A stretch of DNA of 64,000 bases from Calditrichota bacterium (lineage in GTDB: Bacteria; Calditrichota; Calditrichia; RBG-13-44-9; J042), in contig JAADJD010000017.1 of the NCBI GenBank assembly GCA_013150955.1, forward strand, positions 36,336-100,335, given 5' to 3'. The notes below the pieces were generated by a model. That model worked only from the letters and a program-made list of their open reading frames with translations, did not search any database and was not told where the DNA came from. Of this stretch, positions 1-41,421 are shown piece by piece. Each line of letters starts with the position of its first letter. Position 1 is the stretch's first letter. The position numbers and the translations under genes were made by a program.

Positions 1-1518
1 ATTATTGGGATTGTGATTGCCAGCCTCATCGTTCTGGTGGCGGTAGGTGGGTATTTCATGTTTTCCGATTCAGGAGCGGGGACGGAAACGGAGCAGCAGG
101 CGGATGGTCAGTTGTGGACCTGCGGCATGCACCCGGAGGTGATTCTGGACAAACCCGGAAATTGCCCCATTTGTGGTATGAAGCTGGTACCGGTAAAAGG
201 TACGGGCGCGGTTGAAGAAGACATGGGCGACATGCAGCATGAGGACATGGCTGCCGATGCCCAGAAAGAAAAGAAACCCAAAAAAGAACGTAAGATCCTT
301 TACTGGCGGGCTCCCATGGATCCCACCGAAATTTATGATCGACCCGGAAAATCTAAAATGGGAATGGACCTGATCCCCGTTTATGAAGACGAGGCCGAAT
401 TGGGCGCCGGAGGAACGGTTCGCATTGATCCGGTTACCGTTCAGAATATGGGGATTCGAATGGCCCGCGTGGAAAAGCGGGATTTTCACAAAGTGATTCG
501 CACCGTGGGGTACATCGAATACAATGAGAAAACGCTGTACACAGTATCTCCAAAGATTTCCGGCTGGATTGAGCGGTTATATGTGGATTTTACCGGCCAG
601 ATGGTTTATCCCGGTCAGCCATTGCTGGAAATTTATTCTCCGGAACTGGTGACTACTCAGGAAGAATATTTGCTGGCATTGAACAATCTAAAACTGGTAA
701 ATAAAACCTCTTTTCAATCGATCAGGGACGGGGCGGAGTCCCTCTTAAAAGCTTCCCTGCAGCGCCTGAAATACTGGGATATTCCCGATTCGGAAATTCG
801 GCGACTGGAAGAAACGGGCGAGGTTCGGAAGACTCTCCAGTTGCAGGCCCCGGCACGGGGGGTGGTCATTCACAAAAATGCAGTGGAAGGCTCCTACGTG
901 AAGGAGGGACAGCCGCTGTATCAGATCGCGGACCTGTCCACCGTCTGGGTATACGCCACGGTGTACGATCACGAGTTGCCCTGGATTGAACTGGGACAGG
1001 AAGCCAGCATGGAACTGTCCTATTTGCCGGGAAAAACCTTTAAAGGACGTATCATCTATATTTATCCCTATCTGGATAAGAAAGCCCGTGACGTAAAAAT
1101 CCGCATGGAATTCGAGAATCCCGATCTGGAGCTGCGTCCCGGAATGTATGCCAATGTGATGATCAAGGGCAAAACCATTCCCGATGCCCTGGTGATTCCT
1201 TCGGAGGCGGTCATTCGCTCTGGGGTACGGAACATCGTATTTGTGGTGCGCGAACCGGGCAAGTTTGAACCCCGTCAGGTGAAGATCGGGGAAGAAGGGG
1301 AAGATGGCCTGCTGCGGATCCTCTCGGGACTGCTGCCGGGCGAAAAAATTGTGGTGTCCGCGCAGTTCATGCTGGATAGTGAAAGCCGATTACAGGAAGC
1401 CATTCAGAAATTGCTGAAAGAACGCATGAAAAAACAGCAATCGAAAGGTGCAGAATCGCGCCCGGATGAGATGGAAGGAATGGATCATTCGAAACCCATG
1501 AATGAGCATGCGCACTAA
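1..1518 (+). CDS. cusB: CusB-type RND efflux periplasmic adaptor, 5' end cut by the window
   Basis: Membrane-fusion subunit of a copper/silver RND efflux system, linking the inner-membrane pump to an outer-membrane channel. The frame is open to base 1 and encodes the hydrophobic N-terminal anchor, so the true start lies upstream; the first in-window start is GTG at 13 (501 aa from there). Near residue 35 there is a heavy-metal-binding domain (WTCGMHP ... CPICGMKLVP), followed near 95-128 by a second, Cys-less copy (YWRAPMDP ... MGMDLIPVY) as is usual in CusB. Barrel-sandwich and beta-barrel domains follow. The C-terminus ends in a Met/His tail (MDHSKPMNEHAH). It is followed by cusA after 48 bp; the outer-membrane partner is not in the window and may lie upstream. 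Confidence 0.93.
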   Translation: MIGIVIASLIVLVAVGGYFMFSDSGAGTETEQQADGQLWTCGMHPEVILDKPGNCPICGMKLVPVKGTGAVEEDMGDMQHEDMAADAQKEKKPKKERKILYWRAPMDPTEIYDRPGKSKMGMDLIPVYEDEAELGAGGTVRIDPVTVQNMGIRMARVEKRDFHKVIRTVGYIEYNEKTLYTVSPKISGWIERLYVDFTGQMVYPGQPLLEIYSPELVTTQEEYLLALNNLKLVNKTSFQSIRDGAESLLKASLQRLKYWDIPDSEIRRLEETGEVRKTLQLQAPARGVVIHKNAVEGSYVKEGQPLYQIADLSTVWVYATVYDHELPWIELGQEASMELSYLPGKTFKGRIIYIYPYLDKKARDVKIRMEFENPDLELRPGMYANVMIKGKTIPDALVIPSEAVIRSGVRNIVFVVREPGKFEPRQVKIGEEGEDGLLRILSGLLPGEKIVVSAQFMLDSESRLQEAIQKLLKERMKKQQSKGAESRPDEMEGMDHSKPMNEHAH

Positions 1519-1566
1519 TCCCATAGAAATGTGGAAACTGCATAAAGAGAGGATGGAGAGCGACTT

Positions 1567-4500
1567 ATGTTAGAGAAGATCATAGAAGCGTCGGTAAACA
1601 ATCGGTTCCTGGTGATCCTGTTTACCATTATCATTGCGCTGGGTGGCATTTACACCATGTTACAGACACCCGTGGATGCCATCCCGGATTTAAGTGATGT
1701 TCAGGTGATTATTTTCACCGAATATCCTGGTCAGGCCCCCCAGGTGGTGGAGGACCAGGTGACCTATCCCCTGACCAGCGCCATGCTGGCGGTACCATAC
1801 GCCAAAGTGGTGCGGGGGTATTCCTTTTTTGGATTGTCCTTTGTGTACATCATTTTTGAAGATGGCACCGACCTTTACTGGGCCCGAAGCCGGGTTCTGG
1901 AATATTTGAATTACGTTTCCAAGAACTTACCACCGGGAGTCACCCCGTCCCTGGGCCCCGATGCCACCGGTGTGGGATGGGTGTTTGAATACGTGCTGGA
2001 TGGTGGTGATAAATACGATCTGCAGCAACTGCGCTCCATCCAGGACTGGTACCTGCGTTACGAGCTGATGAGCGTTCCCGGTGTGGCCGAAGTGGCCAGC
2101 ATCGGCGGGTACGTAAAGCAATATCAAGTTGAGGTGGATCCCAACAAACTGCTGGCATACAACATCCCCCTAAGCAAGGTCAAAATGGCCATCAAGCGCA
2201 GCAACAACGACGTGGGTGGCCGATTAATCGAAATGGGCGAAACCGAATTCATGGTTCGCGGACTGGGGTACATTCAATCCATCGAAGATGTGGAGAATAT
2301 CCCGGTGGGTGTGGATGAGAACGGTACGCCCATCTTGATTAAAAATATTGCCAACGTTCACATTGGACCGGAATTGCGCCGGGGTCTGGCCGACCTGAAT
2401 GGTGAAGGCGAAGTGGTTGGTGGCATAGTGGTGATGCGCTGGGGCGAAAACGCCCTCAAAACCATTCATGCGGTTAAGGAAAAGCTGAAAGAGCTGGAAA
2501 AAGGGTTACCTGAAGGGGTCAAGATCATTCCGGTATACGACCGTTCCGGCCTGATTGAACGCGCCATCGACAATTTAAAAGAGAAGCTAATCGAAGAAAG
2601 TCTGGTGGTTGCCCTGGTCACCATCATCTTTCTGCTGCATTTCCGAAGTTCACTGGTGGCCATTTTTACCCTCCCCATGGGAATCCTGATGGCCTTCCTG
2701 GTCATGTATTACCAGGGGATTAACGCCAACATCATGTCACTGGGAGGAATTGCGATCGCCATCGGCGCCATGGTCGATGCGGCCATCGTGATGATAGAGA
2801 ATGCCCATAAACACATCGAACGGTACGGTGGTAAAAAGGACCACTGGCAATTGATCATCGATTCTTCCAAGGAAGTGGGACCGGCGCTGTTCTACTCGCT
2901 ATTGATCATTACCCTGTCGTTTTTACCGGTGTTTGCTCTGCAGGCGCAGGAAGGTCGACTGTTTAAGCCGCTGGCGTACACCAAAACTTACGCCATGGCA
3001 GCCGCTGCGCTGCTGTCCATCACCATCGTACCGGTGCTGATGGGATACTTCATCCGCGGCAAGATTATGCCGGAAGAAAAGAATCCCATCAATCGTTTCC
3101 TGATCCGGGTTTACCGGCCCATTATTCACCTGGTTTTGCGATTTAAGTGGACCACCATCATCGTTGCCATCGTCATTCTGCTGATTTCGATCTGGCCGGT
3201 GGAACACATCGGATCCGAATTCATGCCCCCATTGAACGAGGGCGACCTGCTGTACATGCCCACCACGGATCCGGGCATCAGCATCACGAAGGCCAAGGAA
3301 ATTTTACAACAGACGGACAAGATCATTAAAAGTTTTCCTGAGGTGGAAAGTGTGTTCGGAAAGATTGGTCGCGCGGAAACGGCCACCGACCCGGCACCCC
3401 TTTCCATGATCGAAACCACAATCATGCTAAAGCCGAAGGAAGAATGGCGGCCGGGCATGACCATGGACAAGCTGGTCGAGGAACTGGATAAGGCCATTCA
3501 GTTTCCGGGACTGACCAATGCCTGGACCATGCCCATTAAAACCCGAATCGACATGCTTTCCACCGGTATTAAAACCCCTATTGGAATCAAGTTGATGGGG
3601 CCGGATCTGGAGGTGCTATCGGATCTGGGTCGGCGCATCGAAACGGTTATCCGGGAAGTTCCGGGGACGTTGAGTGTCTTTGCCGATAAGACCGTGGGTG
3701 GGAATTATCTGGACTTCAAGATCAAGCGAGAGGAGGCCGCCCGTTACGGCCTGACGGTAGGCGACGTGCAGGATATTATCACCTCGGCCATTGGTGGCAT
3801 GAACGTCACCTATACGGTGGAGGGGCTGGAACGTTATCCCGTAAACGTGCGCTATGCACGGGAATTGCGGGACAATATCGAAGCGCTGAAGCGGGTGTTG
3901 ATTCCCACGCCCACGGGCGCTCAAATTCCCCTGCACTACGTGGCCGACCTCGAAATCAAGAAAGGTCCACCGGTGATCAAGAGCGAAAACGCCCGTAAAA
4001 CCGCCTGGCTGTACGTGGACATTCGGGACATTGACGTGGGAACCTACGTGAAGAATGCCAAAAAGGCAGTTGAGGAAAAAGTGGACTTTCCCGAAGGCTA
4101 CAGTATCGTCTGGAGTGGCCAGTATGAATATATGGAACGTGCCCAGCAGCGACTGCGCCTGGTCATTCCCATTACCCTGGTGATTATCTTCCTTCTGTTG
4201 TATTTCAACTTCAAAAACATTCAGGAAAGCCTGATCGTGATGCTTTCGCTACCGTTTTCGCTGGTCGGTGGTATCTGGTTCATGTACATACTGGATTACA
4301 ACTTTAGCGTGGCTGTGGGGGTGGGCTTTATTGCCCTTGCAGGGGTAGCCGCCGAAACGGGTGTGGTCATGCTCATTTACCTGGATCATGCCTACAAGCA
4401 CCGAAAGTTGCACGGAAAATTGCGATCGCTGAAAGACCTGTACGATGCCATCATCGAAGGGGCTGTGGAGCGTGTGCGTCCCAAGATGATGACCGTAACC

Positions 4501-4728
4501 GCCATCATGGCCGGTCTGTTGCCCATCCTGTGGGGAACGGGTACCGGTTCTCAGGTAATGAAGCGCATTGCGGCACCCATGGTGGGCGGTATGGTGACTT
4601 CGACCATTCTCACCCTGGTGGTTATCCCGGCCATTTACTATCTGTGGAAGAGTCGGGAAGTGAAACGCATCATGGCGGAATTGCAGGAAAACAATGACGA
4701 CAGCAGTGAAGCGAAAGAAGAGAAATAA
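1567..4728 (+). CDS. cusA: CusA-type heavy-metal efflux RND pump
   Basis: Inner-membrane proton-driven pump (1053 aa, full family length) of the Cu(I)/Ag(I) subgroup. The transmembrane-4 motif AIGAMVDAAIVMIEN places the proton-relay Asp at about residue 404. Three methionines in LLYMP, PLSMIETT and RIDMLSTG match the positions I remember for the E. coli CusA metal relay. The start is set by GAGAGGATGGAGAG upstream of the ATG. It sits between cusB and an lgt-like gene, the first steps of a long co-directional run. Divalent-metal CzcA is the alternative, but the transmembrane-4 and Met pattern favours monovalent copper or silver. Confidence 0.95.
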   Translation: MLEKIIEASVNNRFLVILFTIIIALGGIYTMLQTPVDAIPDLSDVQVIIFTEYPGQAPQVVEDQVTYPLTSAMLAVPYAKVVRGYSFFGLSFVYIIFEDGTDLYWARSRVLEYLNYVSKNLPPGVTPSLGPDATGVGWVFEYVLDGGDKYDLQQLRSIQDWYLRYELMSVPGVAEVASIGGYVKQYQVEVDPNKLLAYNIPLSKVKMAIKRSNNDVGGRLIEMGETEFMVRGLGYIQSIEDVENIPVGVDENGTPILIKNIANVHIGPELRRGLADLNGEGEVVGGIVVMRWGENALKTIHAVKEKLKELEKGLPEGVKIIPVYDRSGLIERAIDNLKEKLIEESLVVALVTIIFLLHFRSSLVAIFTLPMGILMAFLVMYYQGINANIMSLGGIAIAIGAMVDAAIVMIENAHKHIERYGGKKDHWQLIIDSSKEVGPALFYSLLIITLSFLPVFALQAQEGRLFKPLAYTKTYAMAAAALLSITIVPVLMGYFIRGKIMPEEKNPINRFLIRVYRPIIHLVLRFKWTTIIVAIVILLISIWPVEHIGSEFMPPLNEGDLLYMPTTDPGISITKAKEILQQTDKIIKSFPEVESVFGKIGRAETATDPAPLSMIETTIMLKPKEEWRPGMTMDKLVEELDKAIQFPGLTNAWTMPIKTRIDMLSTGIKTPIGIKLMGPDLEVLSDLGRRIETVIREVPGTLSVFADKTVGGNYLDFKIKREEAARYGLTVGDVQDIITSAIGGMNVTYTVEGLERYPVNVRYARELRDNIEALKRVLIPTPTGAQIPLHYVADLEIKKGPPVIKSENARKTAWLYVDIRDIDVGTYVKNAKKAVEEKVDFPEGYSIVWSGQYEYMERAQQRLRLVIPITLVIIFLLLYFNFKNIQESLIVMLSLPFSLVGGIWFMYILDYNFSVAVGVGFIALAGVAAETGVVMLIYLDHAYKHRKLHGKLRSLKDLYDAIIEGAVERVRPKMMTVTAIMAGLLPILWGTGTGSQVMKRIAAPMVGGMVTSTILTLVVIPAIYYLWKSREVKRIMAELQENNDDSSEAKEEK

Positions 4729-4734
4729 GATGTT

Positions 4735-4763
4735 CGGGAGAGGATTAGAAGGAACCTCTCCCG
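4735..4763 (+). other. Intercistronic hairpin between cusA and the lgt-like gene
   Basis: CGGGAGAGG at 4735-4743 pairs perfectly with CCTCTCCCG at 4755-4763 over an 11-base loop. There is no T-run after it, so it looks like an mRNA processing or stability element rather than an intrinsic terminator. Confidence 0.55.
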
Positions 4764-4788
4764 GTAAATTCAAGAGGAAGGATACGCA

Positions 4789-5598
4789 ATGATTCCCATA
4801 CTCTTTAAAATCGGGCCCCTTGAGATCGGCAGTTATGGGGTAATGATGGCTATGGCGTTTCTCATAACTGCCCTGGTGCTGGCCAGAGAGCTGCGCCTGC
4901 GCGACATGCCCGCTGAATGGGCATACGAGCTGGTGCTGTGGGCGGCACTGGGTGGCATCATAGGGGCCCGATTGTATTTCATACTGGAGCATTTTCCCGA
5001 ATTTCTGGCCGATCCCCTGGGCATGATCTTCAGCCGGGGTGGACTCACCTGGTACGGAGGGTTTTTCCTGGGGAGTCTGACCGTCCTGTGGAAAATTTCC
5101 CGACTGCCGGTTTCCACCCTGGAGCTGGCCGATATCATTGCCCCGTTGATTTTATTAGGGTATGCGATCGGGCGCATTGGCTGTCTGCTTTCCGGGGATG
5201 GCGATTATGGGGTTCCCACAGACGTGCCCTGGGCCATGGCCTTTCCCAACGGTCTGGTTCCCACAGATGTGCCCGTGCATCCCACGCCGTTGTACGAAAC
5301 CCTGCTCTCGGGATTGTTTTTCCTGATGCTGTGGCGATTTCGGCGGATTGCCACCCGGGGCTGGATGGTCAGTGGTCTGCTCATTTTCTACGGTCTGGAA
5401 CGGTTCATTGTGGAATTCTGGCGTCGGACACCGGCGGTTTTCGGCTGGATGACCATGGCGCAGATCATTAGCATTGGCCTGATTGTAACGGGTACGGCTT
5501 TCGGCGTGTACACCTGGAAGTTAGCTGCACGGCGACGAAAAGAAGAGTTGCAACAATTGGTTCATAAAACAACGGTGAAAGTGCATTCAGCCAGTTAA
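4789..5598 (+). CDS. lgt: Prolipoprotein diacylglyceryl transferase-like membrane protein
   Basis: Integral membrane protein of the Lgt family (269 aa, usual length), which attaches diacylglycerol from phosphatidylglycerol to the lipobox Cys of lipoproteins. Visible motifs are GGLTWYGGFF (84-93), GRIGCLLSGDGDYG (128-141) and LERFIVEFWR (203-212). From memory of E. coli Lgt, its Asn146 and Glu151 correspond here to Cys132 and Asp137, and His103 to Tyr89, so this belongs to a variant subgroup and may be a paralog of the housekeeping enzyme. RBS GAGGAAGG precedes the ATG. It lies 17 bp before the PII-like gene, and the operon encodes a lipoprotein (8299-8574) that could be its substrate. Confidence 0.85.
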   Translation: MIPILFKIGPLEIGSYGVMMAMAFLITALVLARELRLRDMPAEWAYELVLWAALGGIIGARLYFILEHFPEFLADPLGMIFSRGGLTWYGGFFLGSLTVLWKISRLPVSTLELADIIAPLILLGYAIGRIGCLLSGDGDYGVPTDVPWAMAFPNGLVPTDVPVHPTPLYETLLSGLFFLMLWRFRRIATRGWMVSGLLIFYGLERFIVEFWRRTPAVFGWMTMAQIISIGLIVTGTAFGVYTWKLAARRRKEELQQLVHKTTVKVHSAS

Positions 5599-5615
5599 AC
5601 GTTGGGAGAAAAACG

Positions 5616-5957
5616 ATGAAAGAAATCAAAGCCTATATACGCGTGGAAAAAGCCGTGGATGTACTGCGTGCTCTGGACGAAGCCGGCATCGATGGGGTGA
5701 CCCTGATCGATGTCATGGGCATGGGGACGCTGGCCGATCCCCAGCAAACCAAATATTCCATTGAATACGTGGAGAAGTATTCGCGGATTTCCAAACTGGA
5801 AGTGGTCTGTCGCGATGAGGATGTCCACAAGATTGTGGAAACCATTCGTAAGGCGGCGTACACCGGTTTAAAAGGCGACGGCATGATCTATGTCTCTCCC
5901 GTGGATATGGTGGTGAAGATTCGTACGGGAGCGCAGGGAGAAGCCGCGCTATCGTGA
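5616..5957 (+). CDS. PII-like signalling protein, metal-efflux-associated group
   Basis: A 113-aa member of the PII/GlnB superfamily. The nucleotide-binding B-loop is kept (TGLKGDGMIYV, near 83-93) while the T-loop region (MGMGTLADPQQTKYSIEY) lacks the uridylylation motif of nitrogen PII proteins. A PII group encoded beside CusA/CzcA pumps (often called PII-NG) is known, and this context fits it. Presumably it senses adenine nucleotides and modulates the pump or another membrane partner; the target is unknown. The start is ATG after TTGGGAGAAAAACG, 17 bp after the lgt-like gene. A paralog about two-thirds identical lies at 15454-15792. Confidence 0.85.
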   Translation: MKEIKAYIRVEKAVDVLRALDEAGIDGVTLIDVMGMGTLADPQQTKYSIEYVEKYSRISKLEVVCRDEDVHKIVETIRKAAYTGLKGDGMIYVSPVDMVVKIRTGAQGEAALS

Positions 5958-6025
5958 TGCGAACGGCGGATTTCCACTAAGGAAAGCGCGGTTCCACACA
6001 ACCCATCAAAACAAAGGAGGCCGTT

Positions 6026-6523
6026 ATGAAACGGTGGATGCAGTGGATAGGAATTGGCAGTTTGTTGGCATTGGCGCTGTACGTTTTCCCGGGTTCAACG
6101 ACTGCCCAGCAACACATGGGCGGGATGCAACATATGCAGCATCAACAGGGCCAGGGAATGATGAATATGCAGAATATGATGCAGCACATGCAGCAGATGA
6201 TGGCCCGCATGCAGGGTATGATGCAGGGAAGCCAGCATATGCAACACATGCAGGGTCAATCCGGCATGATGCATGGTCAGGGCAACAACCACATGGCGCA
6301 GATGATGCAGCACATGAACACCATGGGCCAGACCATGCAGGAAATGATGCAACAGATGAACGCCATGATGCAGAATGCGGAAATGATGAACAATCCGCAG
6401 ATGAAGGAGCACATGGAGCAAATGCAAAAGCATATGCAGGAAATGATGCAGGCCATGGAAGGGATGATTCAGAACATGGAGCAGATGCATCAGAGCGGTG
6501 GCACGGAAAAGGGTAAAAAGTAG
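6026..6523 (+). CDS. Secreted Met/Gln/His-rich protein, probable periplasmic copper binder
   Basis: A 165-aa low-complexity protein with a signal peptide (hydrophobic 8-22, likely cleavage after TTA near 27). I count 43 methionines, arranged as repeated MM and HM pairs separated by Gln, His and Asn, plus a short Lys tail. Such Met clusters bind Cu(I) in several periplasmic copper proteins, so copper or silver sequestration is the natural inference. It belongs to no domain family I recognise and is predicted to be helical. RBS AAAGGAGG is 6 bases before the ATG. It follows the PII-like gene by 68 bp and precedes a cytochrome c. Composition makes all six frames look open, so overlapping ORFs here are artefacts. 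Confidence 0.85.
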   Translation: MKRWMQWIGIGSLLALALYVFPGSTTAQQHMGGMQHMQHQQGQGMMNMQNMMQHMQQMMARMQGMMQGSQHMQHMQGQSGMMHGQGNNHMAQMMQHMNTMGQTMQEMMQQMNAMMQNAEMMNNPQMKEHMEQMQKHMQEMMQAMEGMIQNMEQMHQSGGTEKGKK

Positions 6524-6551
6524 AAGAGAACGCACGCCTCATCAACCGCAT

Positions 6552-6583
6552 CCGGGGGGGGAAGCCCGATGGTTTCTCCCCGG
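6552..6583 (+). other. GC-rich intercistronic hairpin before the cytochrome c gene
   Basis: CCGGGG at 6552-6557 pairs with CCCCGG at 6578-6583, with weaker pairing inside. It is preceded by CTCATCAACCGC (6538-6549), a 12-mer that recurs upstream of another hairpin at 10191. Confidence 0.45.
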
Positions 6584-6609
6584 GTGTTAAAACGAAAGGA
6601 GAAGCGATC

Positions 6610-7032
6610 ATGAAAACGGTGATTCCTGTTCTGATTGTTTTACTGGCTATTGCGAGCTGGATTCCGATGGCGGACACAACGAGTGATGTTCGAGCCCAGT
6701 CCAGCAAATGGGTGGCGCCCAGCTGGGCAGATACACTGAGCAATCCCTATAAAAACGATGTGAAAGCCACCGAAGCAGGAAAGACCATTTTTAATCAGCT
6801 GTGCGCCATTTGCCATGGCAACTCCGGTAAAGGCGATGGCGTGGCCGGCATGGCACTCAATCCCCGACCGGCCAATTTGACTTCCGATGCGGTGCAAAGT
6901 CAGAGTGACGGCGCCCTTTACTGGAAGATCACCACCGGGCGACCGCCCATGGCGTCGTACCGGGAATCGCTTACGGATGAACAGCGCTGGCAGGTGGTCA
7001 ACTACATCCGGCAGCTGGGTAAAAAGAAATAA
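6610..7032 (+). CDS. Periplasmic monoheme cytochrome c
   Basis: A 140-aa class I cytochrome c with a signal peptide (hydrophobic 4-20, Ala-rich cut near 30). The heme site is CAICH (65-69), and Met114 in GRPPMASY is the likely sixth ligand. The C-terminal helix (DEQRWQVVNYIRQL) is typical. It probably carries electrons in the periplasm for copper or other redox reactions; its donor and acceptor cannot be read from sequence. The start is ATG after GAAAGGAGAAG. The next gene, a porin, begins 36 bp later. Confidence 0.9.
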   Translation: MKTVIPVLIVLLAIASWIPMADTTSDVRAQSSKWVAPSWADTLSNPYKNDVKATEAGKTIFNQLCAICHGNSGKGDGVAGMALNPRPANLTSDAVQSQSDGALYWKITTGRPPMASYRESLTDEQRWQVVNYIRQLGKKK

Positions 7033-7068
7033 TAAATCATCGGAGAACCATTTGGGAAGGAGTGGCTT

Positions 7069-8268
7069 ATGAAACGGAATGCTTTATGGATGGTGGTTGT
7101 TGGCTTATGGTTGGTTATGGGATTTTCGCAAAATGGATTGGCTCAGGATGTGGCATCGGTACAGCAGGAAGTGAAGAAATTGAAACCTGGATTGAGCCGC
7201 TTTTTACTCCGGGGTTATGCCCATTCGGGATTTGAGCGCTACGAGAAGGAAAACAGCTTCGTCGGCGGTAGCTTTAATCCCATTTTTCTGTGGCAACAAT
7301 CCGATCGTCTATTATTTGAAGGAGAGCTGGAAGTGGCCCTGGAGCATGGCAGCACCACAATTGGACTGGAATATGCAAACATGTCCTACATTTTAAACAA
7401 ACGCATGATCATTCGAGTGGGAAAATTCTTGATTCCGTTTGGAATTTTTGCCGAGCGCCTGCATCCCCGTTGGATTAATCGCCTGCCCTCCAATCCACTG
7501 GGATTTGACCACGGGGAGCAGGTTGGCCCGGCAGCGGCGCTGGGTGCGGAGATTCGCGGTGGGGCACCCCTGGGTGCATCCAAAATCAACTATTCGATTT
7601 ATTTGATCAATGGCCCCAGCCTGAACGATGGCAGCGAAAATCCCGAAGAGGCCGGGATGCTCCATTTTGACAATTATGAGGATAACAATACCAACAAGGC
7701 CATCGGCGGGCGCTTTGGATTCCTGCCCTTTTCCAGCTCGGCTCTGGAACTGGGTGTCTCCGCACAGTTTGCCAAGGTGGGCAACGAAAATACCATTTAT
7801 CAGGACGTGGGTGCCCGCTTGTTTGCCCTGGATTTATCCCTGGTCAAAACCATTCCCTCGTTAAAGGGCATTGTGGATGTTAAGGCACAGTACAGCATGA
7901 CTCAGGTGGATGATGCCCGGTATGTCGATCCCGAAAATCCCGGGCAGACCTACACGTTTAAAAACGAAAATGCCGCCTATTTTGTCCGCGGCACATTTAA
8001 ACCCGCATTTGTGGCCAATACGTTCATTCAGAAGCTGGAATTTGCTGGCCGCTATTCCGTGCTAACTCTGGCGGAAGGCGCAGCCTGGGGCGGGGAAAAA
8101 CGCCAGTGGGCCTTCAGTTTAAATTACTGGCTGGATTGGCGCACGGTGGTCAAATTTTCCTACCAGTACACCGACGCCCCGGGTGCAGAAGAAGCAGCAG
8201 TGGAACATGAGGAAGAGGGGACACCGCTGGGTGGGGCGTTCCTGATTCACTGGTCATTTGGATTCTAA
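7069..8268 (+). CDS. Outer-membrane porin-like beta-barrel protein
   Basis: A 399-aa protein with a signal peptide ending near LAQ (residue 25), alternating amphipathic strands and a C-terminal aromatic (SFGF) typical of outer-membrane barrels. The segment RVGKFLIPFGIF followed by RLPSNPLGF resembles the phosphate-selective porin O/P type. It probably forms a channel for small solutes or ions. A short coiled region (VASVQQEVKKLKPG) follows the signal peptide, as in many O/P-type porins. The start is ATG with GGGAAGGAG upstream. It is embedded between two cytochrome c genes in the copper operon. Confidence 0.75.
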   Translation: MKRNALWMVVVGLWLVMGFSQNGLAQDVASVQQEVKKLKPGLSRFLLRGYAHSGFERYEKENSFVGGSFNPIFLWQQSDRLLFEGELEVALEHGSTTIGLEYANMSYILNKRMIIRVGKFLIPFGIFAERLHPRWINRLPSNPLGFDHGEQVGPAAALGAEIRGGAPLGASKINYSIYLINGPSLNDGSENPEEAGMLHFDNYEDNNTNKAIGGRFGFLPFSSSALELGVSAQFAKVGNENTIYQDVGARLFALDLSLVKTIPSLKGIVDVKAQYSMTQVDDARYVDPENPGQTYTFKNENAAYFVRGTFKPAFVANTFIQKLEFAGRYSVLTLAEGAAWGGEKRQWAFSLNYWLDWRTVVKFSYQYTDAPGAEEAAVEHEEEGTPLGGAFLIHWSFGF

Positions 8269-8298
8269 CGGCACGGAATTTAACAAAAGGAGAATATC

Positions 8299-8574
8299 AT
8301 GAATAAACATAAATTGCTTGGCGGGTTGCTGATCCTGGTTGTGGTACTGGTGACCGTCTGGGTCATTGGATGTGCATCCAACAAAACTCTGGTAACCGAA
8401 AAAAGCGGCGCCCAGCTCTGGGGCGAAAATTGTGTGCGATGCCATAACGCGCCATCCCCTCCGGCTTTTAACGACTACCAGTGGGAAACCATTGCCATTC
8501 ATATGCGCGTTCGGGCATCCCTGACGGACGAGGAAGTTCAAAAAATCGTCGAATTTCTAAAAATGGCCAATTGA
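8299..8574 (+). CDS. Small lipoprotein cytochrome c
   Basis: A 91-aa monoheme cytochrome with a type II signal peptide: long hydrophobic core (6-23) then VIGC, with Cys25 as the lipidated residue. Heme site CVRCH is at 45-49, and a Met in IHMRVRA could be the sixth ligand. It is short for cytochrome c but complete, ending with the usual DEEVQKIVEFL helix. It is membrane-anchored and probably exchanges electrons with the soluble cytochrome at 6610. RBS AAAGGAG lies upstream; the next gene starts 15 bp later. It is a possible substrate of the lgt-like enzyme of this operon. Confidence 0.88.
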   Translation: MNKHKLLGGLLILVVVLVTVWVIGCASNKTLVTEKSGAQLWGENCVRCHNAPSPPAFNDYQWETIAIHMRVRASLTDEEVQKIVEFLKMAN

Positions 8575-8589
8575 CGAATCGGATAGGTT

Positions 8590-9459
8590 ATGAAATTCCG
8601 TGGATTAAAAAATATCTTTACCATCGCTCTGATGCTCCTCCTGTGGCTCTTACCTGCTCAAATGGCAGTGGGAGCAGGGAAGTGGTCGCTATTTAGTTAC
8701 CTGTCGTACTATAGTGGTCGGTATTATTTAACGGAGACCACCCGTAGCCTGTATGTTGCGGGTGGACTCCGCTATCGCAGTGACCGCTGGAATGTGTCTT
8801 TCAGTATGCCATGGATTATTCAGAATTCCAATTTGGTACAGCAAACGGGTAACGTGTTTTATCCTATGGGGCCCGATGGAAATGGCCGCTCACACATGGA
8901 TGGCGATGCCATGGGGATGGGAGATGGCTGGCATTCCCGGCACATGAACTTTCAGGCGCCCACCTCGCACATCCTCACCGGTCTGGGGGACGCCTACGGC
9001 TACATCAGCTACCGGCTGTATGGCGGGGGATTTGCCACGTATGCGGTATTTGCTAATATTCAAATCAAAGCACCAACGGCCAGTGTTCAGCGGGGATTTG
9101 GCACCGGGGAGTGGGATTATGGCGGCAGTTTTTCCTTTCAAAAACTTTTTTGGCGGAAATGGGGCGCCATTGTCGAACTGGGAATCCTGGACATTGGCGA
9201 TCCCGATTCCATCACCTTTAAAAATCCGGTTTTTGGAAGCCTGACGCTGAACTGGTTTGTGAACCCAAAAGTAGCTCTAACGCTGTATTACCTGTGGTAC
9301 ACACAGATACAGGATCAGGTGGAGCCACCGCGATATGTAAATGGTGGAGTTCACTATCAGATGTCGAATACCATCACCCTGCTGGTCACAGTGGGGCGGG
9401 GGATGAGTTCCAGTAGCGCGGACTTTAACATGTTTACCAGTTTAGAAGTAACACTTTAA
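8590..9459 (+). CDS. Putative outer-membrane beta-barrel protein with Met/His-rich loop
   Basis: A 289-aa protein with a signal peptide (hydrophobic 9-27, cut near VGA) and repeated amphipathic strands to the C-terminus (SLEVTL). Residues about 95-120 form a Gly/Met/His/Asp-rich loop with MDGDAMGMGDGWHSRHM, which could bind metal. The pattern resembles transporter-like barrels of the phenol-degradation MetA type, but I do not recognise it with certainty. The start is ATG with GGATAGG upstream, 15 bp after the lipoprotein cytochrome. The role is inferred only from its place in the copper operon. Confidence 0.65.
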   Translation: MKFRGLKNIFTIALMLLLWLLPAQMAVGAGKWSLFSYLSYYSGRYYLTETTRSLYVAGGLRYRSDRWNVSFSMPWIIQNSNLVQQTGNVFYPMGPDGNGRSHMDGDAMGMGDGWHSRHMNFQAPTSHILTGLGDAYGYISYRLYGGGFATYAVFANIQIKAPTASVQRGFGTGEWDYGGSFSFQKLFWRKWGAIVELGILDIGDPDSITFKNPVFGSLTLNWFVNPKVALTLYYLWYTQIQDQVEPPRYVNGGVHYQMSNTITLLVTVGRGMSSSSADFNMFTSLEVTL

Positions 9460-9475
9460 AAAAGGAGGCCATCGG

Positions 9476-10117
9476 ATGTTTGATATTACACTGTTGCATC
9501 CCAAAGTGGTGCATTTTCCCATTGCCCTGGTGTTGGTGGCGTTTGTATTCGACATTCTGGGCATGATCAAGAAAAATGAATTTTACTATAGATTTGCCTG
9601 GATCAATCTGGTGCTGGCATTTTTTGCCGCCGTGGTGGCCATTGTTAGCGGACTGCTGGCTGCGAACAACGTGCCGCACAATGATCTGGCCCACGAAACC
9701 ATGGAAACGCACGAGAATCTGGGCTATGTGATCGGGGGAATCCTGGCGGTGCTGGTTTTCTGGCGCTTCCGTCTTAAAGGCGCCTTTCCTGAAAAAGGGA
9801 AATGGATCTACTTGCTTCTCTTTTTTGTCGGTGTGGGGACGGTGGTCATCAGCAGCGATCTGGGAGGCAAAATGGTGTACGAATTTGGCGTGGCGGTGAA
9901 GGCGGTGCCTCAGGTGGAATCGGAAGGGCATTCTCACGATGGCGATGGACATTCCCACGGCGAAAGTGCTTCCCCGTCCATGGAATCGCATGAACACGGG
10001 GAGGGCGAAGATCACCACCAGGCCGGCGCCGAAAGCAAAATGAAGGGCGAGGCCTCCCCGGAAAAGAAGCAGAAAAAGCTTCATAAACACGATGATGGAT
10101 CGGTTCATGAACACTAA
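9476..10117 (+). CDS. DUF2231 membrane protein with His-rich tail
   Basis: A 213-aa inner-membrane protein. The N-terminal LHPKVVHFPIALVLVA motif and four hydrophobic segments (about 15-33, 43-62, 83-100, 110-128) match DUF2231, a family often found beside cytochrome c and copper genes. Conserved His residues in the first helix and the HETMETHENLG loop suggest heme or metal binding. The tail from about 150 is rich in His, Glu and Ser (GHSHDGDGHSHGE), a likely metal-binding extension. RBS AAAAGGAGG precedes the ATG. It ends the tightly spaced part of the operon. Confidence 0.8.
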   Translation: MFDITLLHPKVVHFPIALVLVAFVFDILGMIKKNEFYYRFAWINLVLAFFAAVVAIVSGLLAANNVPHNDLAHETMETHENLGYVIGGILAVLVFWRFRLKGAFPEKGKWIYLLLFFVGVGTVVISSDLGGKMVYEFGVAVKAVPQVESEGHSHDGDGHSHGESASPSMESHEHGEGEDHHQAGAESKMKGEASPEKKQKKLHKHDDGSVHEH

Positions 10118-10190
10118 ACGAAAAACAACGTTGTGCGGAACCCGCATGGGATATTCCTGGATGCAAGAAAAATGGTCTCATCAACCGCTA

Positions 10191-10224
10191 ACGGGGTGCG
10201 ATGGCTGGAAGCCATCCGCCCCGT
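10191..10224 (+). ncRNA. Stable hairpin in the spacer upstream of the DUF302 gene
   Basis: ACGGGG (10191-10196) pairs with CCCCGT (10219-10224), and GATGGCT (10200-10206) pairs with AGCCATC (10210-10216) over a GGA loop. There is no following T-run. It is preceded by CTCATCAACCGC (10178-10189), also found before the hairpin at 6552. Candidate structured leader or processing element; class not recognised. Confidence 0.5.
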
Positions 10225-10283
10225 GGCAAAATGACGACAATCGCATCGCCCACGGGCGGGTGGCCGGGATTTCGAAGATATCG

Positions 10284-10389
10284 GGTAACCCGAACCCATA
10301 TTTACCATCTAATGGTAAAGCGCCAGACGGAAAGTTTGTGGCGCTGAACCGTAAAAATTCATAATGGTAAATGGGTTTCAGGGTTCACC
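10284..10389 (+). ncRNA. Multi-stem inverted-repeat leader before DUF302
   Basis: A bulged inverted repeat of about 25 nt joins 10284-10308 to 10364-10389 (GGGTTACC-like and ATGGTAAA-like arms). Nested inside are TACCAT/ATGGTA (10303-10317), which competes with the outer stem, and AGCGCCA/TGGCGCT (10319-10345). The arrangement of mutually exclusive stems just 20 bases before the RBS suggests a regulatory leader. The 293-bp gap 10118-10410 holds no convincing gene. Confidence 0.5.
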
Positions 10390-10410
10390 ATAACATAAAG
10401 GAGAGGTAAA

Positions 10411-10797
10411 ATGAGTTACTATTTTGCACGTCAGTTCGACGCAGATTTTGATGAAATGATTCAGCGGGTAACCGATGCATTGAAGGAAGAAGGATTCGGC
10501 GTCCTGACGGAAATTGATGTCAAAGAAACGTTAAAGAAAAAGCTGGATGTGGATTTCCGCCGCTATCGCATTCTGGGCGCCTGCAATCCACCGTATGCCT
10601 ACAAGGCCTTACAGGCGGAAGACAAGATCGGTACCATGCTGCCCTGCAATGTGGTTGTCCAGGAACTGGGCGATGGCAGGGTGGAGGTTGCTGCTGTCGA
10701 TCCGGTGGCCTCGATGCAGGCCATCAACAATCCGGCACTGGCAGAAATTGCCAGCGAAATTCGGGCGAAGTTAAAAAAGATTGTCGATTCGTTGTAA
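10411..10797 (+). CDS. DUF302 family protein
   Basis: A 128-aa soluble protein of the DUF302 family: central MLPCNVVVQELGDGRVEVAAVDP strand region with a conserved Cys, preceded by the LGACNPPYAYKAL motif. The family has no firm biochemical role and is common near redox and metal genes. No signal peptide, so cytoplasmic. RBS AAAGGAGAGG is ideal for the ATG at 10411. The unusually structured 293-bp leader upstream suggests expression separate from, or modulated within, the copper operon. Confidence 0.85.
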   Translation: MSYYFARQFDADFDEMIQRVTDALKEEGFGVLTEIDVKETLKKKLDVDFRRYRILGACNPPYAYKALQAEDKIGTMLPCNVVVQELGDGRVEVAAVDPVASMQAINNPALAEIASEIRAKLKKIVDSL

Positions 10798-10845
10798 TGA
10801 AAAGCTTCTTTTTTGCCCTTCACACTCTCCCTCCCTCCCTGACCA

Positions 10846-10881
10846 GAGCAGGTGCTCGGGCTCCCGCCCGGGTGCCTGTTC
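10846..10881 (+). terminator. Hairpin with T-rich tail between DUF302 and SHOCT genes
   Basis: GAGCAGGTGCTCGGGC pairs, with a few GU pairs, with GCCCGGGTGCCTGTTC over a short TCCC loop, followed by CTTATTTT. The polypyrimidine stretch CTCCCTCCCTCCCTG just before it is also unusual. Likely an intrinsic terminator or attenuator; the T-run is imperfect. Confidence 0.5.
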
Positions 10882-10927
10882 CTTATTTTAAAGGAGTGGT
10901 GGGATACAAAACACAAGGGAGTCTACC

Positions 10928-11158
10928 ATGATGGGTGGCGATTGGTTTTGGGGTCACATGGGCTTTGGCTGGTTGTTCTGGCTGGTGATCATCGGGATCA
11001 TCATCTGGGGCATCAGCATGATGAGTCGTTCGCGGGGAACCACCGAACCCCCGGCGAAAAAGGAAACCCCACTGGAAATCTTGAAAAAGCGGTATGCACG
11101 GGGAGAAATTACCCGGGAAGAATATGAACAGATGAAACGCGATTTAACGGAAGATTGA
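10928..11158 (+). CDS. SHOCT-domain small membrane protein
   Basis: A 76-aa protein with one transmembrane segment (about 12-30, Trp-rich: GFGWLFWLVIIGIIIWG) and a C-terminal SHOCT domain (ILKKRYARGEITREEYEQM, 50-68). SHOCT modules are short helical hairpins with an oligomerisation or anchoring role. The start is ATG at 10928 (a second ATG is adjacent), with AAGGGAG upstream. It closes the copper-related run and is followed by interspersed repeats. Such proteins commonly neighbour copper genes; the function is unknown. Confidence 0.8.
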   Translation: MMGGDWFWGHMGFGWLFWLVIIGIIIWGISMMSRSRGTTEPPAKKETPLEILKKRYARGEITREEYEQMKRDLTED

Positions 11159-11590: not shown

Positions 11591-11636
11591 AAATTTGCGG
11601 GGATTTGGCAATACCAAAACGACTGGAGAACCTTCC

Positions 11637-12659
11637 ATGGTTTGGAATAGATTCCGGGTTACTGAGTGGCAAATGGTATCCCCCATCGTCGGTATTTTGA
11701 TGGGATTGATGGGGATGGTCTGGCTGTCCTGCCAGAAACCGGGCTCCCAGGAGCCCCGGCTGGATCCGCACCCACCCGAAATCCGGATTGTTTACCCACC
11801 TGACGGCGCCACGTTGACGGATACGGACACCATTCGCGTGGAGGCATCGGATGACGAGGAAATCGAGCGCGTCGAAATTTTCATCGATGGGGAAAAGGTC
11901 GCTGAGCAATCACACCCGCCCTTTCAATACACCTGGTACGTGGGCTACTGGGCGGATGATCAGACCCACACCATTCAGGCCACGGCCTACGACCCGGACG
12001 GCAACCAGGCCAGCAGCGATCCCATTCGAGTAACCATTCCCGCAAGTGCAGCGCTTCAACCGCGGATCTTTGCCCCGCAAAATGATGCCCTCTTCAAAAA
12101 TCCCACGGAAATCCTGCTCCGGTGGTCCAGTCTCCCGGACGCCATTCAGTACGAAGTGCAGGTGGATCGCACCGATGCGTTTGCAAATCCCCAGGAATTT
12201 ACCACCAACACGTACGAATTCTCCTTTACCAACATTCAGGAGGGACTTTTCTACTGGCGGGTTCGGGGGAAAAATTCTCTGGGAAGGCAAAGTCAGTGGA
12301 GTGCTGTGTATCGCTTTGAGATTCGGTTTGTGGTTACCGCGCGGTTTTCGGACATTGAACAAAAGGTGTTTGCCCGGAGCTGTGCATTGAGCAACTGCCA
12401 TACCGGGGATTTTCCGGCGCAGGGATTGGATTTAACGCCGGGACAAGCGTATCAGAACCTGGTGAATGTACCCAGTTTTGAAGTGCCCTCCTGGATGCTG
12501 GTGGAGCCGAACCGCAGCGATCGCAGTTACCTGATTACCAAGCTTGCCGGCGGTGATTCCCTGAAAGGCGGATTAATGCCCTTGAACGGTGCCCCCCTTC
12601 GGCAGGAAGTGATCGATTCCATCCGTGCCTGGATCGACCGCGGTGCGCTGGATAATTAG
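11637..12659 (+). CDS. Lipoprotein with Ig-like/FnIII-like domains and a CX4CH cytochrome-like C-terminus
   Basis: A 340-aa exported protein. The N-terminal hydrophobic segment (15-30) ends in VWLSC, so Cys32 may be lipidated. Residues about 45-135 form a bacterial Ig-like domain (IRIVYPPDGATLTDTDTI ...) and 140-235 a fibronectin-like fold. The C-terminal 100 residues resemble planctomycete-type cytochrome domains: a Cys249-x4-Cys254-His255 site, GLDLTPGQAYQNL, then MPLNGAPL and an AWIDRGAL end. The four-residue spacing departs from the usual CXXCH, so heme attachment is inferred. ATG at 11637 is chosen for GGAGAA upstream, over a TTG at 11595. The gene is bracketed on both sides by tandem interspersed repeats. 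Confidence 0.8.
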   Translation: MVWNRFRVTEWQMVSPIVGILMGLMGMVWLSCQKPGSQEPRLDPHPPEIRIVYPPDGATLTDTDTIRVEASDDEEIERVEIFIDGEKVAEQSHPPFQYTWYVGYWADDQTHTIQATAYDPDGNQASSDPIRVTIPASAALQPRIFAPQNDALFKNPTEILLRWSSLPDAIQYEVQVDRTDAFANPQEFTTNTYEFSFTNIQEGLFYWRVRGKNSLGRQSQWSAVYRFEIRFVVTARFSDIEQKVFARSCALSNCHTGDFPAQGLDLTPGQAYQNLVNVPSFEVPSWMLVEPNRSDRSYLITKLAGGDSLKGGLMPLNGAPLRQEVIDSIRAWIDRGALDN

Positions 12660-15792: not shown

Positions 15793-15987
15793 ATGCAGGA
15801 TTGGCGTCAGATTGTAGAATTTTCTTCATTTGAATTTTTGCCCTTTGTAGATTATTATTCAGCGAAATGAAGCGAATGGGGAATAGCAGACGGAATTAAA
15901 GCGCTTCGAACGCGAAACCGGAAAATAAATTTGTGGCATTAATTTTGATTAGTTTTCATTGGGACGGATATAAAGGACGAGGTCATC

Positions 15988-16731: not shown

Positions 16732-17298
16732 ATGATTTGTCCAAATTGCGGAAAAATTAACGAAAACGATGCCCGATTCTGCAACTATTGCGGCATCAGC
16801 TTAAAAAAGAAACAGCAGAAGGTGTGTCCCAATTGCGGGGAAGAGAATCTACCGGAAGCACGATATTGCGTGTCCTGTGGAACCCGAATTGCCAGTGAAG
16901 CGCGATCCCCAAAAAATCGGGGGAAACGATCAAAAGGCCGGGAGCAGCCGGTGCATTCTTCGCGGACATTTTTACTCACACTGGCGGCGATTGTGGGATT
17001 GTTTTTTGTGGCCATTCTGCTGGTGAAACAATCGGATCAAACGAACTATTCCCGAAATGCATCCAGTCCGGTGGTGAATCCAACCGTTGCCGACCCGGCA
17101 ACCGAGGCACTGGTGGTTGCGGTGGCGGAAAAATTTATCTGTGCCTGTGGGGGATGTCCCCAACTGGATCTGGTCGACTGCGACTGCGATGCCGCAACCC
17201 GGCAAAAGAACTACATTCGCGAGCAATTGCAGCAGGGGCGTTCCATGGAAGAAGTGATTGCCATGGTGAAAACCACCTTCGGTGGGTTCAAAGAGTGA
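16732..17298 (+). CDS. Double zinc ribbon / membrane / CcmH-like cysteine domain protein
   Basis: A 188-aa protein with an unusual architecture. Two zinc ribbons occupy 1-50 (Cys3/6/17/20 and Cys32/35/46/49). A basic linker leads to one membrane helix (80-98), and the outer part ends in CACGGCPQLDLVDCDCD (Cys137, 139, 142, 150, 152) followed by NYIREQLQQGRSMEEVIAM. That last segment resembles the periplasmic redox motif and helix of the CcmH protein encoded at 34167. A thiol or heme-handling role outside the membrane, with a cytoplasmic zinc-ribbon tether, is inferred. The start is ATG with AAAGGGG. It lies 111 bp before copA. Confidence 0.75.
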   Translation: MICPNCGKINENDARFCNYCGISLKKKQQKVCPNCGEENLPEARYCVSCGTRIASEARSPKNRGKRSKGREQPVHSSRTFLLTLAAIVGLFFVAILLVKQSDQTNYSRNASSPVVNPTVADPATEALVVAVAEKFICACGGCPQLDLVDCDCDAATRQKNYIREQLQQGRSMEEVIAMVKTTFGGFKE

Positions 17299-22078: not shown

Positions 22079-22115
22079 GAATATGCCACAAAATTTGAAA
22101 ATTTGTAGCATATTC
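22079..22115. promoter_or_regulatory. Long inverted repeat, possible operator
   Basis: GAATATGC ... GCATATTC with the inner AT-rich arms also largely complementary (ACAAA/TTTGT). It lies in the otherwise gene-free gap 21884-22267, about 150 bp upstream of the thioredoxin-fold/copB pair. Could be an operator or a small hairpin. Confidence 0.4.
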
Positions 22116-22267
22116 TACAAACGGCAGAAATCCAGTGCAGACGAATCAATGCGGTTTATCCGACAAATCCCTTTGTTTTACACGCTTTTGAGACCGTTCG
22201 ATCTTTCTGGTATGATATTTGATTCAAAGGGCACCAGCAAACATTAACATAAAAAGGAGTGTTTAAA

Positions 22268-22513: not shown

Positions 22514-22541
22514 ATCCCATTTAAAAATGGAGGAAGCAACA

Positions 22542-24788
22542 ATGAGCAAACATCAACACGATGATCATCACAAGCATCATGGTGAGCATAAATCGGAGCC
22601 CCCGGAACACGATCACACCCAGGGTCACGATCATTCCGGTCACTCGAAGGATACCCATCATCATCACGAACAGAAGGCCGGTGAAGATCACAGCCAGCAT
22701 GCCCACACACAGGGGATGGAACATGCCCATCATGAACATGCTGGGCATGCGAAAGCCGATCACCAGAAGGCGCAACATGGCGGTCACGGGGGACATGGAG
22801 AACACGGCGGACACGGAGGCGATGCACACAAAGGGCATCATGATCATCACGCCCACATGATTGCCGATTTCCGGAAACGTTTCTGGATTTCGCTGGTTTT
22901 AACCATTCCCATTCTGCTGCTGGCCCCGATGGTTCAGAAATTTCTGGGACTGGAGGGGCTGCGTTTTGCCGGGGATGTCTTCCTGTCCTTTCTGCTATCC
23001 TCGGTGGTTTTCTTTTACGGTGGCTATCCCTTCCTGAAGGGAATTTTCGATGAGCTGAAAAAGCTCCAGCCAGGAATGATGACCCTGATAGCGCTGGCCA
23101 TTTCCGTTGCCTACTTTTACAGCAGTGCGGTGGTCTTTGGGCTGGAGGGAAAGACGTTTTTCTGGGAACTGGCCACGCTAATTGACATCATGTTGCTGGG
23201 GCACTGGATCGAAATGAAATCCGTCATGGGGGCGTCGCGGGCTCTGGAGGAGCTGGCCAAACTCATGCCCTCGGATGCGCATAAAATCATGCCCGACGGT
23301 AGCGTTCAGGACGTTCCCCTCAGCGAACTGCAGCCGGGCGACCGGGTGCTGGTCAAACCGGGCGAGAAGGTTCCTGCTGACGGCATTGTGGTGGAGGGGC
23401 AAACCTCGGTCAATGAGGCAATGCTTACCGGGGAATCAAAACCGGTGTCGAAAAAATCCGGAGATAAGGTCATCGGTGGCTCTATCAATGGTGAAGGATC
23501 GATCACCATCGAGGTTCAGAAGACGGGCAAGGATTCCTTTCTTTCGCAGGTGATTGATCTGGTACGGGAAGCCCAGGAAAGCAAATCCAAAACCCAGGAT
23601 CTGGCCAATCGCGCTGCCTTCTGGCTGACCATGATCGCCATCGTGGGTGGTGGATTGACGCTGTTCATCTGGCTGGCCATTATGAACAAAGATTTCGCCT
23701 TTGCGCTGGAACGAACGGTTACCGTGATGGTGATTACCTGTCCCCATGCACTGGGATTGGCCGTACCGCTGGTGGTTGCGGTTTCCACTGCCATTTCGGC
23801 GCGAAACGGTTTGCTCATCCGCAACCGGGCAGCGTTTGAAGCCGGGCGCAATATTCAGGCCATCATTTTTGACAAGACCGGTACCCTGACCAAAGGGGAA
23901 TTCGGTGTCACCGATATCATCAACCTGGACAGCAAACTGGACGATTCGGAAATCCTGACGCTGGCGGCTTCCGTTGAGGCCCATTCCGAGCATCCCATTG
24001 CCAGGGGCATTGTAAATTCTTCCCAAAAGGCACTGCCGGTTTCCGATTTTAAGGCCATTCCCGGAAAAGGCGCTCGCGGAAAGGTCGACGGGCAGGAAGT
24101 CATGGTGGTCAGTCCGGGCTACCTGCGGGAAAACAACATTCAACTGGAAAACAAGCAGATCGAGGCCCTGAACGCTCAGGGGAAAACCGTGGTTTATGTG
24201 CTGGTGAATGGATCCGTGGTGGGCGCGATTGCGCTGGCGGATATCATTCGCCCGGAATCGAAGGAAGCCATCCGCCGACTGAAGGAGATGGGGATTCGCA
24301 CCATGATGCTCACCGGAGATAACCGCCAGGTGGCCAAATGGGTGGCCGATGAGCTGGGACTGGATGAATATTTTGCGGAAGTGCTGCCGCAGGAAAAAGC
24401 CGCCAAGGTAAAGGAAGTCCAGGCTCGCGGCTTAACGGTGGCCATGACCGGCGATGGTGTCAACGACGCTCCGGCGCTGGTGCAGGCTGATGTGGGCATA
24501 GCCATTGGTGCCGGCACCGATGTGGCCGTGGAAGCAGCGGATATCGTCCTGGTACGCAGCAATCCACTGGATGTGGTGGCCATCATCGGGTTGGCCAAGG
24601 CCACCTATCGAAAGATGGTACAAAATCTGGCCTGGGCAACGGGCTATAATGCCTTTGCCATTCCACTGGCAGCCGGTGTGCTGTATAGCTATGGCATCCT
24701 GTTAAGCCCGGCCATGGGAGCCGTCCTGATGTCCCTGAGCACGGTGATTGTAGCCATCAACGCCCGATTCCTGAAAGTGGAAAAATAA
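22542..24788 (+). CDS. copB: CopB-type P1B-3 copper/silver ATPase with His-rich N-terminus
   Basis: A 748-aa P-type ATPase. The first 106 residues contain 36 histidines, a metal-binding extension typical of CopB. The membrane metal site is CPH (400-402), the phosphorylation Asp is 444 (DKTGTLTKG), SEHPIARG and GDGVNDAP follow, and the C-terminal helices contain MSLSTVIVAINARFL. This is the P1B-3 subgroup (Cu2+ or Cu+/Ag+), distinct from copA at 17410. ATG 22542 is chosen for GGAGG eight bases upstream, over an ATG at 22527. It is followed by a strong bidirectional terminator. Confidence 0.95.
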   Translation: MSKHQHDDHHKHHGEHKSEPPEHDHTQGHDHSGHSKDTHHHHEQKAGEDHSQHAHTQGMEHAHHEHAGHAKADHQKAQHGGHGGHGEHGGHGGDAHKGHHDHHAHMIADFRKRFWISLVLTIPILLLAPMVQKFLGLEGLRFAGDVFLSFLLSSVVFFYGGYPFLKGIFDELKKLQPGMMTLIALAISVAYFYSSAVVFGLEGKTFFWELATLIDIMLLGHWIEMKSVMGASRALEELAKLMPSDAHKIMPDGSVQDVPLSELQPGDRVLVKPGEKVPADGIVVEGQTSVNEAMLTGESKPVSKKSGDKVIGGSINGEGSITIEVQKTGKDSFLSQVIDLVREAQESKSKTQDLANRAAFWLTMIAIVGGGLTLFIWLAIMNKDFAFALERTVTVMVITCPHALGLAVPLVVAVSTAISARNGLLIRNRAAFEAGRNIQAIIFDKTGTLTKGEFGVTDIINLDSKLDDSEILTLAASVEAHSEHPIARGIVNSSQKALPVSDFKAIPGKGARGKVDGQEVMVVSPGYLRENNIQLENKQIEALNAQGKTVVYVLVNGSVVGAIALADIIRPESKEAIRRLKEMGIRTMMLTGDNRQVAKWVADELGLDEYFAEVLPQEKAAKVKEVQARGLTVAMTGDGVNDAPALVQADVGIAIGAGTDVAVEAADIVLVRSNPLDVVAIIGLAKATYRKMVQNLAWATGYNAFAIPLAAGVLYSYGILLSPAMGAVLMSLSTVIVAINARFLKVEK

Positions 24789-31229: not shown

Positions 31230-31241
31230 CCTGCCAAAGTG

Positions 31242-31282
31242 TATAATATTCTATACCTTCCCTGAATAATATTCTACACTCC
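31242..31282. promoter_or_regulatory. Paired AATATTCTA direct repeats, possible operator
   Basis: TATAATATTCTATA and AATAATATTCTACA stand about 24 bp apart, each partly palindromic (GTATA...TATAC; GAATA-A-TATTC). They lie about 110-150 bp upstream of the Cys-rich protein and the ccm genes. A similar CATATTCTACA occurs at 22109, upstream of copB. Confidence 0.4.
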
Positions 31283-39024: not shown

Positions 39025-39033
39025 GAGGCTATT

Positions 39034-41403: not shown

Positions 41404-41421
41404 GAAAAAGGAGGACTGACT

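Follow-up and report, generated by a model that had tools for sequence, protein, structure and literature searches.

A conserved cytochrome–porin–lipoprotein cytochrome unit in a Calditrichota copper operon and its possible role in taking electrons from Cu(I)

Introduction

Why should an operon for copper efflux run on into cytochromes c and a porin? The question is raised by a 64,000-nucleotide stretch of DNA from a Calditrichota bacterium (positions 36336-100335 of contig C51 in genome G000, 4.07 Mb; hereafter the window). At its start, cusB and cusA are followed by genes that include those for a monohaem cytochrome c (cyt1), a porin and a lipoprotein cytochrome c (lipocyt). An earlier note on this DNA suggested that the set could couple copper(I) oxidation, or copper export, to an electron chain across the envelope. 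Our best model, held tentatively and at somewhat less than even confidence, is that these three genes encode a copper-induced, split, Cyc2-like electron unit that takes electrons from Cu(I).

Results

Conservation of a three-gene unit

The observation in the earlier note was confirmed and proved larger than described. The core of the block is a three-gene unit, cyt1–porin–lipocyt, which recurs in this order and on a single strand in over 70 loci. A profile search with the lipocyt retrieved 80 GTDB loci. In 77 of these a porin gene stands ahead of the lipocyt gene, and about nine times in ten the porin in turn has a cyt1 match ahead of it. The genes share a strand in every case, and most of the exceptions are cut contigs. 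Median gaps within the triplet are 19 nucleotides on both sides. Conservation of this gene order in many genomes indicates that the arrangement is beyond chance. A missing neighbour is weak evidence here, because many of the genomes were assembled from metagenomes and their contigs are short. The phyla represented include Bacteroidota, Chlorobiota/Ignavibacteriota, Balneolota, Rhodothermota, Neomarinimicrobiota and Calditrichota. Of 79 lipocyts, 69 have a lipobox cysteine that a pattern search detects, and inspection by eye shows one in nine of the remaining ten. Neither cytochrome shows any variation in its haem ligands, whether in the copper clade defined below or in the other triplets.

Within Calditrichota, the neighbourhoods of 15 relatives comprise two modules, namely PII–Met-rich gene–barrel–DUF2231, usually behind cusCBA, and cyt1–porin–lipocyt. 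The modules lie within ~10 kb of each other in 10/10 genomes with a close porin (E <= 1e-120). A literature search, in which coverage of subscription journals was thin, found no paper describing the triplet, no expression or biochemical data for the gene set and no sigma-54 copper regulon of the kind reported below, and gave one marginal match for DUF2231 with cytochrome c.

Distant relatives of the lipocyt (L211 1711-1971, L213 7897-8172, L214 7872-8171) stand directly after other outer-membrane-protein-like genes, hinting at a wider theme of lipoprotein cytochrome plus barrel.

Copper context of the triplet

Metal context was scored with profiles for CusA, CusB, CusC, CopB-type ATPase, multicopper oxidase and HMBD proteins, built from the same loci, and controls were scored with the same profiles. 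Where the porin scores at least 250 bits against that of the window, 46 of 57 loci have a metal gene in the available flank (30 of the 37 with > 5 kb on both sides). The corresponding count is 2/20 for more divergent triplets (2/10 with full flanks), and likewise 2/20 for arbitrary 20-kb stretches (n=20, from four other genomes). For full-flank loci, the Fisher p-values are 4e-7 against arbitrary stretches and 6e-4 against full-flank divergent triplets, values that overstate independence because the loci are related. The copper label is clustered on the porin tree, where it takes 8 changes as compared with 13.6 after shuffling; 45 of the 49 copper loci fall in a single clade of 55 rows.

The earlier note would have given up a copper role had the block occurred mostly without metal genes in other genomes. 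We see the opposite, as metal genes share the contig with barrel and triplet in all 13 loci that carry both (those for L139 were seen in L041, part of the same contig). Copper-linked triplets make up most of one porin clade, the control sites described next add regulatory support, and these comparisons argue that the link of the block to copper is well supported. A haem-copper oxidase gene is present in 13/13 triplet genomes of the phylum and in 20/27 others, a weak difference.

A shared sigma-54/palindrome control site

The operon starts upstream of the window, within a stretch that we call L009 (G000:C51:28336-46336). Ahead of its first gene is a sigma-54-type box, TGGCACGGCAGTTGAT (L009 6187-6202), and 159 nucleotides before this box is a perfect palindrome, TGTAGAATATTCTACA. 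In many relatives, too, this pair of sites stands ahead of the cus operon. Allowing up to one mismatch, 60 palindrome sites were found in 25 of the 40 genomes of the phylum, whereas a reversed-pattern control gave 0. By manual reading, 51 of the 60 stand ahead of copper, Met-rich, cytochrome-maturation, Rieske or regulator genes. Of the four sites in the window's genome, one precedes the cus–triplet operon, one a gene pair for thioredoxin and a CopB-type ATPase, one a two-domain multicopper oxidase whose partner has 397 residues (contig C3) and one a Met-rich LTXXQ-family gene (contig C17). In the window itself, five sites were counted at up to two mismatches, against 0.05 expected. In genome G034 the triplet lies outside the cus operon and has a separate palindrome (one mismatch) and a weak sigma-54-like box (L304 17717). 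The sigma-54 consensus on its own is not enriched and is informative only when paired with the palindrome; a sigma-70 scan gave no excess.

A gene for an NtrC-type regulator, with response receiver, sigma-54 activation and Fis-type helix-turn-helix domains, lies close upstream of the operon, and from this position the regulator is a candidate palindrome binder.

These sites bear on the earlier remark that no oxidase is recognisable. This holds for the block, which lacks the multicopper oxidase of Pco/CueO systems, but not for the regulon, given the C3 gene with the same type of site. The block as a substitute for a missing multicopper oxidase was rejected, as PF07732 matches occur in 17 of the 40 phylum genomes, several with the oxidase in the same island.

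At window positions 16732-17298, a double zinc-ribbon protein with a CcmH-like domain adjoins CopA; in one relative (L040 3741-4637) a similar protein adjoins CcmF.

The porin and its likeness to Cyc2

The porin model has 16 strands, with a predicted local distance difference test score (pLDDT) of 90.1. The porin profile found no match by sequence among PDB chains, and relatives were found by fold search only (VIA-align), the best being OprO (4rjw, Z 27.4) and OprP (2o4v, Z 27.2). Four histidines set the copper clade apart. Conservation of His132, His148 and His394 there is 98-100%, and that of His52 is 81%, as compared with 22, 26, 0 and 0% in other triplets. His52 on strand 1 and His394 on strand 16 have polar-facing parity and sit on neighbouring strands, while His132 and His148 fall in the long segment that links strands 5 and 6 (residues 122-155). 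In 16-strand porins, the constriction loop occupies the position of this segment. Strand parity and general porin topology suggest that the four histidines may line the lumen.

Among the closest known systems is the iron oxidase Cyc2, described as a 16-strand porin, modelled on OprO/OprP, with a single-haem cytochrome fused at its N terminus; it passes electrons to periplasmic carriers and has a unique AXPXFAR[Q/K][T/Y] motif upstream of CXXCH (PMC8406198). The present unit likewise sets one haem c beside a 16-strand OprO/OprP-like porin, but its genes are separate, its cytochrome is lipidated and its context is copper, not iron. Because the Cyc2 motif is absent (0/79 lipocyts, and neither of the two fusion reading frames described next), we describe the unit as Cyc2-like and not as Cyc2. 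In the window, as in the triplet loci, cytochrome and porin have a gene each, and they are fused only in L209 (3147-4610) and L210 (5595-6791), two genomes of one other lineage, where a lipocyt-like domain is joined in frame to a related porin in what looks like an independent Cyc2-like architecture. MtrAB, MtoAB and PioAB also place a porin plus cytochrome at the outer membrane, but with 26-strand barrels and decahaem cytochromes (PMC8406198), whereas here there are 16 strands and one CxxCH in each cytochrome.

The second barrel and other copper-operon proteins

The Met/His-loop barrel is FapF/COG4313-like by profile and fold match. FapF came first in its fold search, PcoB (7pge) came 41st, and no Pfam family was assigned. 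It differs from FapF/COG4313 barrels in standing in a copper operon and in its Met/His-containing loop (residues 83-125), which has low model confidence. A single-sequence scan of genome contigs with the barrel gave no match; the lipocyt profile search did work. Compared with CusCBA and PcoABCD/CueO, the operon shares a Cus pump, Met-rich proteins, an outer-membrane barrel and, elsewhere in the regulon, a multicopper oxidase, but the block adds haem-c proteins, an OprO/OprP-fold porin and sigma-54/palindrome control, and its barrel seems FapF-like rather than PcoB-like.

In distant relatives, DUF2231 has an extra C-terminal domain of ~200 residues with no Pfam match (L038 8383-9537, L035 3286-4353 and others), whose sequence suggests a beta-sandwich. 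In one relative (L041 6650-8371), the gene between PII and the Met-rich gene encodes a multihaem protein that has nine CxxCH motifs and ends in a secretion sorting tail.

Operon layout and neighbouring genes

All the genes named in the earlier note are present on the + strand with the expected family assignments, and their tight spacing was borne out, with gaps of 16-87 nucleotides from PII through DUF2231. The gene list was incomplete, since it omitted lgt, DUF302, SHOCT and, upstream, cusC, a small open reading frame (ORF) and an NtrC-type two-component system. The full order of the block, on one strand, is cusBA–lgt–PII–Met-rich gene–cytochrome c–porin–lipoprotein cytochrome c–FapF-like barrel–DUF2231–DUF302 (Table 1). 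L009 holds the end of a histidine kinase gene, the NtrC-type regulator, a large opposite-strand gene, a 137-residue ORF, TolC-type cusC (L009 6667-7941, just upstream of the window), cusB and cusA, so that pump, adaptor and outer-membrane channel are all encoded together. CusA is ~80-97% identical in many relatives. HMBD domains and neighbouring genes point to Cu(I)/Ag(I) as the likely substrates of CusCBA. The small ORF (L009 6236-6649; ~100-140 residues in relatives) matches no Pfam family but shows conservation of a YTCxYHR-like motif, and is the leading gene of the cus operon in most relatives.

The operon lgt was considered as the general lipoprotein enzyme and rejected in that role, because a second copy exists on contig C50 and the operons of most relatives lack lgt; it takes this operon position only within the same family.

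Beyond the block, positions 11595-12659 encode a lipoprotein-like protein that combines a bacterial Ig domain with a CX4CH motif, CALSNCH, reminiscent of a cytochrome-like domain, and a similar gene follows the block in one relative (L034 10812-11813). From translations only, positions 38060-48663 hold a molybdenum hydroxylase cluster (xanthine/CO dehydrogenase-type) with XdhC-like and AAA/VWA genes.

Table 1 Features of the copper operon and of the control sites in the window. Gene starts are mechanical calls.
Feature	Position in window	Strand	Details
cusB	1..1518	+	Periplasmic adaptor with HMBD metal-binding domains; 5' end outside window, whole gene L009 7983-9518
cusA	1567..4728	+	Cu/Ag-type resistance-nodulation-division pump; L009 9567-12728
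lgt paralogue	4789..5598	+	Between cusA and PII
PII-family protein	5616..5957	+	Place conserved among relatives
Met/His-rich secreted protein	6026..6523	+	43 Met and 12 His in 165 residues
cyt1	6610..7032	+	Monohaem class I cytochrome c; CAICH haem site, invariant Met114
Porin	7069..8268	+	16-strand OprO/OprP fold; clade-specific His52, His132, His148, His394
lipocyt	8299..8574	+	Lipoprotein (Cys25) monohaem cytochrome c; CVRCH, invariant His68-Met69
FapF/COG4313-like outer-membrane barrel	8590..9459	+	Met/His loop 83-125
DUF2231 membrane protein	9476..10117	+	His-rich tail (12 His)
DUF302 protein	10411..10797	+	
Strong terminator-like hairpin	10846..10881	+	After DUF302; consensus scan only
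SHOCT-type small protein	10928..11158	+	
Degenerate palindrome (2 mismatches)	15814..15827		Sigma-54-like box 15934-15949; before RseC–CcmH-like–CopA
Palindrome (1 mismatch)	22104..22119		Sigma-54-like box 22208-22222; before thioredoxin–CopB-type ATPase (22527-24788)
Tandem degenerate palindromes (31241, 31264)	31241..31277		Weak sigma-54-like box at 31352; before CcmE–CcmF–CcmH

Discussion

We read the block as a putative copper-induced envelope defence operon. Under copper stress, the upstream NtrC-type regulator would bind the palindrome. The lipid-anchored monohaem lipocyt would dock at the periplasmic mouth of the 16-strand porin in a split version of the Cyc2 design, and Cu(I) at the His-lined constriction would give an electron to the lipocyt haem. 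Cyt1 would carry this electron onward to the respiratory chain, Cu(II) would stay on the outer side, and the metal itself would be handled by CusCBA, the Met-rich protein and the barrel. The coupling to an electron chain proposed in the earlier note is plausible, with two haem-c proteins in the block and CcmEFH genes with the same type of site. Sequence establishes the unit, the copper genes around it and the control site that it shares; we infer the electron donor, the direction of flow and the docking.

Several points weigh against this model. The porin histidines could bind something other than copper, the Cyc2 motif is missing, and the case for the regulator as palindrome binder is one of position. 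Divergent triplets exist without copper genes, and the ancestral role of the triplet may differ from copper handling. Many copper-linked loci also carry a multicopper oxidase, and a second Cu(I) oxidase would therefore be partly redundant there.

The alternative that survives best, which we nonetheless consider unlikely, is a backup for respiration. Copper would damage cytochrome-c maturation, the regulon would raise CcmEFH and extra cytochromes, the porin would be an ordinary one and copper would not be an electron donor. CcmE–CcmF–CcmH do carry the same type of control site, and respiratory complexes and haem pathways are described as copper or silver targets in two papers (PMC6247083, PMC7283390), but the strict porin–lipocyt pairing, the fusion and the histidines of the copper clade would be left unexplained. 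We regard it as improbable that the unit works in reverse, with the chain supplying electrons that reduce Cu(II) at the outer membrane and yield Cu(I) for export or uptake. Its anatomy would be identical, Cus-type pumps do export Cu(I) (PMC12509749) and direction cannot be read from sequence, but producing more toxic Cu(I) is an unlikely aim for a set that also holds multicopper oxidases. We give little credence to a His-lined porin that passes copper across the outer membrane while the cytochromes only sense or gate. The clade-specific histidines would suit such a channel, and PcoB is reported to be an outer-membrane barrel that handles copper (PMC9210255); against this, the porin has the OprO/OprP fold, the second barrel matches FapF better than PcoB, and two haem proteins would be hard to explain. 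Chance adjacency, or a general envelope electron carrier merely recruited beside copper genes, is very improbable, since it fits the divergent triplets, mostly without copper neighbours, but not the clade-wide copper context, the shared regulatory site or the clade-specific residues.

We therefore retain the split, Cyc2-like unit as the preferred model, and extend it more doubtfully to a widespread cuprous oxidase of the outer membrane, built from a porin and a lipid-anchored haem protein as separate parts, which would feed Cu(I) electrons into respiration, with a Calditrichota sigma-54 copper regulon that also raises cytochrome-c maturation. As its electrons would pass into respiration, such an oxidase would itself need no reaction with O2. 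Because divergent triplets lack copper neighbours, the general role of the triplet may be wider, and copper may be a specialised branch marked by the added histidines.

The model offers a testable function for a gene set for which we found no description in the literature, and the palindrome sites give a defined candidate copper regulon for Calditrichota. To our knowledge, periplasmic detoxification of Cu(I) by oxidation depends on multicopper oxidases. If the model is true, the outer membrane may be a site where some bacteria withdraw electrons from copper and so detoxify it. Such a haem-based route would link respiration with metal resistance and show that the single-haem cytochrome–porin design is not confined to iron.

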